From Thermoplasmatota archaeon (GTDB taxonomy: Archaea > Thermoplasmatota > Thermoplasmata > UBA10834): DNA of 64,000 nt. The first letter of the stretch is position 1. Each line of letters starts with the position of its first letter. Under the pieces are notes generated by a model. That model did not search any database. It was given only the letters and a program-made list of their open reading frames with translations, and was not told the origin of the DNA. The stretch lies in the NCBI GenBank assembly GCA_018818785.1, contig JAHIRF010000002.1, positions 199,874-263,873 of the forward strand, read 5' to 3'. Positions 26,397 through 59,212 of the stretch are shown one piece after another. A program made the translations under genes and the position numbers.

Positions 26397-26484
26397 GGAT
26401 GGTTGCGAATACACTGGGTCGTAGATAACACTAATCGTCACTGTCGCCCAAGAATTGATGAGATGGGGTGGATGGCAGAAAGAG

Positions 26485-26571
26485 CGCCGAGGGGGAGATT
26501 TGAACTCCCGTGGTGTCAAGCACCAGTAGCTCTCGAGGCTACCGCCTTAAACCGGGCTTAGCTACCTCGGC
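26485..26571 (-). tRNA. tRNA-Ser(CGA)
   Basis: Acceptor GCCGAGG/CCTCGGC with G discriminator; anticodon stem GTAGC/GCTAC with loop CTCGAGA; long variable arm TGGTGCTTGACACCA; T-loop GTTCAAATC; CCA not encoded. Confidence 0.95.
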
Positions 26572-55611: not shown

Positions 55612-56673
55612 TCAGCGTTTCTGCTTTGTGCCCAGGAGGTTCTTGACTACAGGGGCGAAATCGAATACCCTGAGCTCGGTGCAGCGCTCGAGAGAGAAGA
55701 CATTGATGCGTGGACTCTCATCAAAAATTCGTGATTTATGGTACCACGCTAGTATGTCCTCCAGATTTTCCGCATATTCCTGGTATCTGGAGATCATGTG
55801 GTTGGTGACGCTCTCATCAGCCTTGGACAATGTCAGGAAGGATAAATCGATCGGCTCCTTAGGTTGTGCCTTTAGGCGAGATTCCCATGCGACTTCCATG
55901 GAGAATCTAGAATGGGTCACAGCATAGATTTCGAAGCCCCACTTGTATAAGCGCGGAACGCAGACTTTGGTGACATATCCTTCATCGACCAGCTTGTTTC
56001 TTATCCGTGTAACTGCCTGCCGAGACAGTTTGACCTTTTCCGCCATCTCTCGGTCCGACGCATTGGGATTCTCCACCATCGCGATTAGCGTCCTCTTCGC
56101 AGTATCTGAAAGATCAGGAGAGGTCACATCGTGACGCTTGGTGACCTGAGACTTCGGCTGAGGCACCTCTAGCTGAAAGAAGCGGTGGACGGTCGGAGCG
56201 AAGTTGGTCGTATAGGTTCCTCGCGACATGCGATACGGAAACATGACGGTGTCAAGTTTCGCCTTGGACGACCGGCGCTGACCGGTGAAGAAGCTGTTGT
56301 GTTTCTGAATGAACCCCTCTAATTCAGTCGCATCGCAGAACGCTGTGTAGAATGCCACATTTCCGCCTCCGATCATGGAGAAGAACATCTGAGGGGCAGA
56401 CTCACAGAAGTCCAAGTAATGGCCCGCCTTCAGATCAGAAGCCACCCCAGGATCAGTGGTACCCGTGTGAAAACCGATCATCTCGCATCCAAGCTTGTTG
56501 AACGCTGGCACGTTTGCGTAGTAGATGGCTCCTGCATCGAGCATCCGCCTGCGAACGGATGCGACCGTGCCCTTATTCAGGCCATACAGGTCTGCGATCT
56601 CAGAATCGGTCCTGTACGCGTCCTCGGTCATGCCCAGAATTACCAACATCTCAGAATGGAGGAAACGCCACAT
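55612..56673 (-). CDS. two-module Lrp/AsnC-like winged-helix regulator
   Basis: Two HTH segments (SEIADLYGLNKGTVASVRRRM and SDREMAEKVKLSRQAVTRIRNKL); start set at MWRFLHSEM. Confidence 0.75.
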   Translation of the reverse strand: MWRFLHSEMLVILGMTEDAYRTDSEIADLYGLNKGTVASVRRRMLDAGAIYYANVPAFNKLGCEMIGFHTGTTDPGVASDLKAGHYLDFCESAPQMFFSMIGGGNVAFYTAFCDATELEGFIQKHNSFFTGQRRSSKAKLDTVMFPYRMSRGTYTTNFAPTVHRFFQLEVPQPKSQVTKRHDVTSPDLSDTAKRTLIAMVENPNASDREMAEKVKLSRQAVTRIRNKLVDEGYVTKVCVPRLYKWGFEIYAVTHSRFSMEVAWESRLKAQPKEPIDLSFLTLSKADESVTNHMISRYQEYAENLEDILAWYHKSRIFDESPRINVFSLERCTELRVFDFAPVVKNLLGTKQKR

Positions 56674-56799
56674 GCACCTAGATTGGCATAATTCAAATAA
56701 AAAGATTCTAATGATACAACTGCCACGGTTGCAGCAATATAAATGGCACAAAGACGAAACATGTATTCCAACCAATGATAAAGATTATAGTCCATTAAT

Positions 56800-56905
56800 G
56801 GGCATACAGTGCCTAGTCTATTGGTTCGCTCTTTTGAAGGAAGAGGAGAGGTGTAACCAAATAGGGTGATGCCCAACTGCGGTGGAGTCCCCTCCACCTA
56901 TTTTT
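56800..56905 (+). ncRNA. candidate structured ncRNA ending in a hairpin plus T6
   Basis: GGGCAT/ATGCCC outer stem, CTATTGGTT/AACC(a)AATAG-type stem, CTCTT/AAGAG hairpin, then GGTGGAG-TCCC-CTCCACC-TATTTTTT; upstream AT-rich gataaagattatag. Confidence 0.4.
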
Positions 56906-57003
56906 TCATCTCATTGGTGGCGTGAGAGTTACTGAGGGCCACGTGGAATCATACTATCCAGTATGCAATGGACGAACGAAAACAAGGAATGAGTTCCCAG
57001 GAC

Positions 57004-57153
57004 CTAGGCCTTCTTTGCTTCCCTGGTCTTGATTCTCAAGCCAGTGTATTTGCACTTTCTGCATCTTGTTGCACGTATAGCATTCCTTGCATTGCAATTC
57101 ATGCAGATCTTCTTAACGAGGTTCCTCGCCTCTGCTTCAGGGAATCTTGCCAT
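57004..57153 (-). CDS. rpl40e: ribosomal protein L40e
   Basis: [49 protein letters not shown]. Confidence 0.95.
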
Positions 57154-57230
57154 GACAGCCCTCTCGGCCTCAAAACATGCATACTGTATATAACTCTTGT
57201 GCATCTGCATCAATGCCAGGACATCATACG

Positions 57231-58234: not shown

Positions 58235-59212
58235 ATGCAGGGGAGGGGGAAACAACCAATAAATAGTCGACTTCGGAATCAGAAGCCAGTGACCGATTGC
58301 GACAAGTGCAGGAAGAAGGCCGCAATACTGATCAGATACAGCGGCGCTCATCTCTGCAAGGAACACTTCTGCGAATTCGTGGACAAGCGAGTCAAACACG
58401 AGATAAGGCAGCAGCTGGACATCAAGGGCGGAGAAAGGATTGCAGTTGCAGTCTCAGGGGGGAAGGACAGCAGTCTGGCCCTGCACATGATATCCAAAAT
58501 ATTGGGAGTGAGGAAAGACCTGGGCATCGCGGCGATAACAATCGATGAAGGGATACGAGGGTATCGCGACTCATCGGTCCCCCTCGTCAGGAGACAGTGC
58601 CATGATTTGGGTGTAGAACACATAGTGGTTTCATTCAAGGACATGTTCGGAATCACAATGGACGATATCGCATGCCGCGATCGCAGACTCTCCGCATGCA
58701 GTTACTGTGGGGTTCTCAGGAGGAACGCGATGAACCGAGCTGCACGTGGATGGAGTGCTACCCATCTGGCAACAGGACTCAATCTCGATGACACATCCCA
58801 ATCGATTCTGATGAATTTCGCTCGAGGGGATGTGGAAAGACTGGCGAGGCTCGGCCCTCATAAGAGAAGGCAGACAGGACTCGTGCCCCGCATCCAACCG
58901 CTGCGCACGATACCCGAGAGCGAGTCGATGCTGTATGCAATGATAAAAGGGATGGAATTCCACGATCTGGAGTGCCCTTATGCTCCCGAGGCGCTTCGCA
59001 ACTCATATCGGACGGTCGTGGGCGAACTGGAGGACCAGTTTCCAGGAACTAGACATTCGATATTGAAGAGCTATGAACACATGATGCCAGTCCTGGAAGA
59101 GATGTACGAACCCGCTGCTCTAAGGATGTGCTCGTGTGGAGAGCCCACGATATCTGAGAAGTGTAAGGCGTGCGAACTCATTGAGAACGTGAAGGATAAC
59201 GCGTCTAGATGA
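58235..59212 (+). CDS. tRNA 2-thiolation protein (TtuA/NcsA family)
   Basis: CDKCRKKAAILI, AVSGGKDSSLAL PP-loop, CSYCGVLRR, C-terminal CSCGEPTISEKCKAC; true start may be the GTG near 58288. Confidence 0.9.
   Translation: MQGRGKQPINSRLRNQKPVTDCDKCRKKAAILIRYSGAHLCKEHFCEFVDKRVKHEIRQQLDIKGGERIAVAVSGGKDSSLALHMISKILGVRKDLGIAAITIDEGIRGYRDSSVPLVRRQCHDLGVEHIVVSFKDMFGITMDDIACRDRRLSACSYCGVLRRNAMNRAARGWSATHLATGLNLDDTSQSILMNFARGDVERLARLGPHKRRQTGLVPRIQPLRTIPESESMLYAMIKGMEFHDLECPYAPEALRNSYRTVVGELEDQFPGTRHSILKSYEHMMPVLEEMYEPAALRMCSCGEPTISEKCKACELIENVKDNASR

Follow-up and report, generated by a model that had tools for sequence, protein, structure and literature searches.

Positions 56811 to 56906, on the plus strand of the 64,000-nucleotide window of Thermoplasmata archaeal DNA analysed here, lie between protein-coding genes, which raises the question of whether they specify a new small RNA (sRNA), as a sequence-only reading had proposed, and, if so, how such an RNA acts. 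A DNA search identified a single-copy homologue in 18 of the 19 genomes of the family, spread across all three genera; the only genome without the sRNA is 55% complete, while every family genome that is at least 65% complete contains one copy. A covariance model built from the 18 homologues recovered the same 18 in the family, found nothing in the order's sister family, and gave nothing credible outside the family among 300 sampled genomes of the class, although the strict filters used in this last search mean that very diverged copies could escape. The G275 match (E 0.08), outside the family, sits within a 1429-aa reading frame and was dismissed as chance. No credible homologue was found next to the L40e gene in other families, and no copies were present in the viral contigs scanned. 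When 84,980 species genomes were scanned for the sequence pattern, 16 loci were returned, and the MAGs carrying them were all labelled Thermoplasmata, Thermoplasmatota or Euryarchaeota. On comparative grounds it is nearly certain that the sRNA family is genuine and confined to a single archaeal family of uncultured Thermoplasmata.

The conservation profile, computed as identity over 10 columns in 17 aligned intergenic regions, follows the proposed transcript closely. Identity is 0.66-0.84 at 56816-56864 and rises to 0.97-1.0 at 56865-56895, the nearly invariant 3' half of the RNA, before dropping to 0.06-0.43 past 56915 in the 3' flank. On the upstream side, the peaks correspond to the TATA box (0.72) and the promoter side of the neighbouring regulator gene (about 0.7), with values of 0.27-0.5 in between. 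Conservation in 18 genomes against near-neutral flanks is far beyond chance, and the invariance of the sRNA shows strong selection on the RNA sequence. Within the invariant half lies the linker region GGUGAUGCCCAACUGC (56865-56880), identical in 16 of 18 genomes, with the other two differing by C to T alone; its 3' part is single-stranded in the long-hairpin fold described below, making it a candidate seed or recognition element.

A core promoter, AAAGATTATAGTC (BRE plus TATA-like box, 56780-56792), was predicted by a weight matrix trained only on the regions upstream of 28 tRNAs of the same genome (consensus AAAGnTTTATATA). The score at 56780 is reached by 0.009% of window sites and is comparable to those of the genome's own tRNA promoters; the best promoter site begins 84-91 nt before the TGATGCCC anchor in all 18 homologues. 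Spacing from the TATA box places the start of the sRNA near 56811, give or take about 5 nt, and its end was set at the T-run. The transcript closes with the hairpin GGUGGAG-UCCC-CUCCACC (56881-56898), which the sequence-only reading had already recognized as ending the unit. This hairpin is the sole terminator-like site on the plus strand between 55600 and 58300, occurs as an exact copy only once in the genome and, loop included, displays two single-base differences only across 18 genomes. It is followed by the U-rich terminator tail TATTTTTT (56899-56906), with the T-run at 56901-56906; within the 17 nt just after the hairpin, every homologue has a T-run of 3-7. The BRE/TATA element and the T-run thus occur at fixed offsets in 18/18, bearing out the view that the locus has its own promoter and terminator signals. 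The comparison shows strict conservation at one locus, a dedicated TATA/BRE promoter and a 3' end made up of a hairpin plus U-tract, and the fixed promoter and U-tract point to an independent, intergenic plus-strand transcription unit. It should be emphasized that archaeal termination relies on U-tracts and does not strictly need a hairpin (PMC8716108); the near invariance of the 3' hairpin therefore suggests that it does more than terminate.

The order of genes around the sRNA is conserved, comprising topA (+), a small protein (-), a regulator with two helix-turn-helix (HTH) regions (-), the sRNA (+), L40e (-) and the RFC small subunit (-), with flank directions read only where the flanking sequence allowed. 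At L038-L055 the arrangement topA, small protein, regulator, sRNA, L40e, RFC, TtuA-like and glyA-like is unusually stable across the three genera. Ribosomal protein L40e (57004-57213, minus strand; NCBIfam NF003161) is the convergent downstream neighbour, and the regulator (55612-56673, minus strand) comprises 353 aa from its MWRF start (ATG 56673), with HTH_24/MarR/TrmB matches. The nearest plus-strand gene, originally placed about 1.3 kb away, starts at 58235. Because no same-strand gene lies directly 3' of it, the sRNA is not a 5' leader, as had been argued: upstream the regulator points away, and downstream the L40e and RFC genes are on the minus strand. The earlier statement that no plausible protein is encoded also holds, as the 18 homologues share no open reading frame, and the RNA is classed as non-coding. 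ARAGORN and Rfam detected no tRNA or tmRNA at the locus, the window's only one being tRNA-Ser at 26484-26571, and a comparison with the covariance models of Rfam 15, an analysis that the initial reading had advocated, gave no match, whether at the gathering threshold or with E values up to 1. The 18-genome conservation, the promoter, the T-run and the lack of an Rfam family bear out the proposal of a new small RNA, and the existence of a real, uncatalogued sRNA gene of about 95 nt is, from these comparisons, highly probable.

With respect to structure, the plus strand at 56799-56905 folds at -39.5 kcal/mol (z -2.64) and beats 200 of 200 dinucleotide shuffles, in line with the folding analysis that had been suggested, and z is negative in all 18 homologues (-0.6 to -3.2). 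The inner motifs are located where the sequence-only reading had put them (CTATTGGTT at 56818-56826, AACCAAATAG at 56855-56864, CTCTT at 56829-56833 and AAGAG at 56841-56845). In the long hairpin, P1 is formed by the RCC element (56811-56813, the inferred 5' end), the CC of which is invariant in 18/18 and preceded by G or A, with GGU at 56865-56867. P2, extending over 56818-56864, pairs CUAUUGGUU (56818-56826) with AACCAA-a-UAG (56855-56864), represented by UUUGG/CCAAA in relatives, while the inner stem (56829-56850) opposes CUCUUUU to a purine tract in an AAGAG or GGAGAG register with a purine-rich loop. Two folds compete across relatives. One is the long hairpin, with pairings RCC/GGU, UUUGG/CCAAA, ACAC/GUGU and CUCUU with the purine tract; the other consists of several local hairpins. 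In g2/g3 relatives the RCC element pairs alternatively with a local GGY. The outer stem first proposed fared less well: GGGCAT (56800-56805) and ATGCCC (56869-56874) are both present, but their pairing was rejected, as GGGCAT is missing from every homologue and sits 10-15 nt downstream of the TATA box, and a start near 56811 leaves it outside the transcript. In the consensus structure 97% of cells are paired, compared with 50-67% when the structure is slid. Compensatory double changes were found at 0 pairs in the 18 homologues and shuffles perform equally; covariation, to which the first reading had looked for confirmation, therefore gives the fold no support. The case for the fold thus consists of its stability and one matched indel: in this species, the 5' arm of which is misplaced by automatic alignment, the 3' arm of P2 carries an inserted AU (CCAAAUAG), to which CUA in the 5' arm (CUAUUGG) is the counterpart. 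The fold is likely rather than proven, with this indel providing the best single evidence.

What, then, might the RNA do? Our leading explanation, held tentatively and at somewhat less than an even chance, is that it is a stand-alone intergenic regulatory sRNA that acts in trans by pairing with mRNAs. The transcript would fold into the long 5' hairpin (P1, P2 and inner stem), the invariant single-stranded linker GAUGCCCAACUGC and the 3' hairpin with its UCCC loop, and would base-pair with mRNAs through the linker, the C-rich 3' hairpin or both. The C-rich loop and arm of the 3' hairpin contain an anti-Shine-Dalgarno-like CCCCUCC that could cover GGAGG ribosome-binding sites; it should be noted that CCCCUCC lies within a strong hairpin, in which the UCCC loop alone is free. 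The 16S rRNA of the genome ends AUCACCUCCU, and Shine-Dalgarno pairing is thus available; several window genes have UGGAGGGA/GGAGG or GGAGGU upstream of the start, and such motifs are weakly enriched in window genes (17/54 versus 12/51 in the control). The Methanosarcina mazei RNAs sRNA162, sRNA154 and sRNA41 are reported to act by masking ribosome-binding sites (PMC3510493, PMC5867862), and for this reason the trans-acting reading is favoured, with a protein-binding RNA as its main rival.

That rival, which is possible though less likely, views the RNA as an RNP scaffold or a decoy for proteins, in which the invariant linker and the 3' hairpin would form a protein-recognition element. It would accommodate the approximately 35 nearly invariant nucleotides, which include both hairpin arms and the loop, the presence of a single copy in all family genomes at least 65% complete, and the tRNA-like promoter. 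It would also be consistent with the target searches: none of the 19 genomes contains a second perfect complement of the 13-nt linker, and one-mismatch matches are near the control level, indicating that there is no conserved long target site, a result that also counts against the leading explanation. The restriction of the RNA to one family, however, is unlike housekeeping RNAs, and the rival has no candidate partner protein. A separate, improbable reading draws on the competing folds. The conserved UUUGG has two possible partners, a local one (RCC...GGY) and CCAAA, and GGGUGAUGCCC may either close the long hairpin or fold into one by itself; the RNA would then be a bistable regulator, switched by a protein or ligand, that exposes or hides the invariant linker.

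A modification guide, which the sequence-only reading had entertained in its H/ACA-like form, is very unlikely. The hairpin has internal loops and GUGAUGC resembles box C, but RUGAUGA occurs in 0/18 homologues and CUGA in 1/18, which argues against a C/D guide, while an H/ACA guide is contradicted by the lack of an ACA near the 3' end, bar one point variant within a hairpin arm. Rfam gives no match, and the strongest duplexes with rRNA score at the level of shuffles, so that complementarity does not clearly exceed them; the one exception, among ten tests, is a marginal value for linker with 23S (-19.8 versus a shuffle mean of -16.9, sd 1.4). Equally unlikely is a cis element of the opposite strand that would serve the regulator gene as a 5' leader or attenuator. 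The minus strand folds too (z -2.36) and has the regulator downstream, yet promoter and T-run are on the plus strand at fixed offsets in 18/18, the best minus-strand promoter score is poor with no T-run at the matching place, conservation falls between the sRNA and the regulator, and close to its start the latter carries a conserved block of its own that is A/T-rich and resembles a promoter. A small open reading frame from ATG 56869 (MPNCGGVPST...) is hardly tenable since, although all three linker C to T changes fall at third codon positions and a Shine-Dalgarno-like purine-rich stretch lies upstream, the frame continues beyond the T-run, the homologues have no stop codon in common (their frames span 13-80 codons and end in unrelated tails), and both hairpin changes are non-synonymous.

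If the RNA is a trans-acting regulator, the divergent HTH protein that shares its intergenic region may control its expression, a weaker component of the model based on position and constant spacing. Clustering places the regulator beside the sRNA in 17 of 18 loci; its ATG lies a nearly constant 196-205 nt from the TGATGCCC anchor (17 loci with an ATG start), and roughly 137-151 nt from the inferred sRNA start. Of the protein's two HTH regions, the weaker is N-terminal and the other, Pfam HTH_24, lies around residue 220 in the longer ORF. Sequence comparison gave no PDB relative; the genome encodes one paralogue with 32% identity (G000:C9:48576-49607), and relatives outside the family, among the genomes searched, are only 20-35% identical. 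At 56725-56752, half-sites like TGCCA...TGGCA, spaced by about 21-22 bp (TGCCAcggttgcagcaatataaaTGGCA in this species), are seen again in variable form in many homologues and represent a possible operator for the regulator. A block at 56683-56705 near the regulator start (TTGGCA..TTCAAATAAA; about 0.7 identity) probably holds the TATA box of that gene, the mRNA of which would then be almost leaderless. A shared operator, TTTGGCA at both starts, was not supported because the sRNA copy is TTGGTT in the window's genus, while the regulator side keeps TTGGCA or TTGACA.

Characterised archaeal sRNAs are few, and a literature search found none for uncultured Thermoplasmata. Because its locus is fixed, its start and end can be inferred and it has 18 homologues, the sRNA described here can be searched for directly in environmental metatranscriptomes. 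In bacteria, the Hfq-dependent systems GcvA/GcvB and OxyR/OxyS provide examples of an sRNA transcribed divergently from a regulator gene, with a proven regulatory link. The present locus has the same divergent layout; in contrast, its link to the regulator is positional only and its host is archaeal. Further parallels come from M. mazei. The archaeal sRNA162 is likewise intergenic, has its own promoter, adjoins a transcription-factor gene, contains stem-loops with a single-stranded linker and is confined to close relatives (PMC3510493), a likeness drawn from its description. sRNA162, however, is 191 nt, processed, and has a homologous second copy and a variable linker (PMC3510493), whereas the RNA reported here is about 95 nt and single copy with an invariant linker. 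Similarly, sRNA154 and sRNA41 are archaeal intergenic RNAs that are reported to mask ribosome-binding sites, have known targets and show nitrogen-dependent expression (PMC5867862); our RNA has in common with them its intergenic, archaeal setting, and its 3' hairpin bears the anti-ribosome-binding-site-like CCCCUCC.
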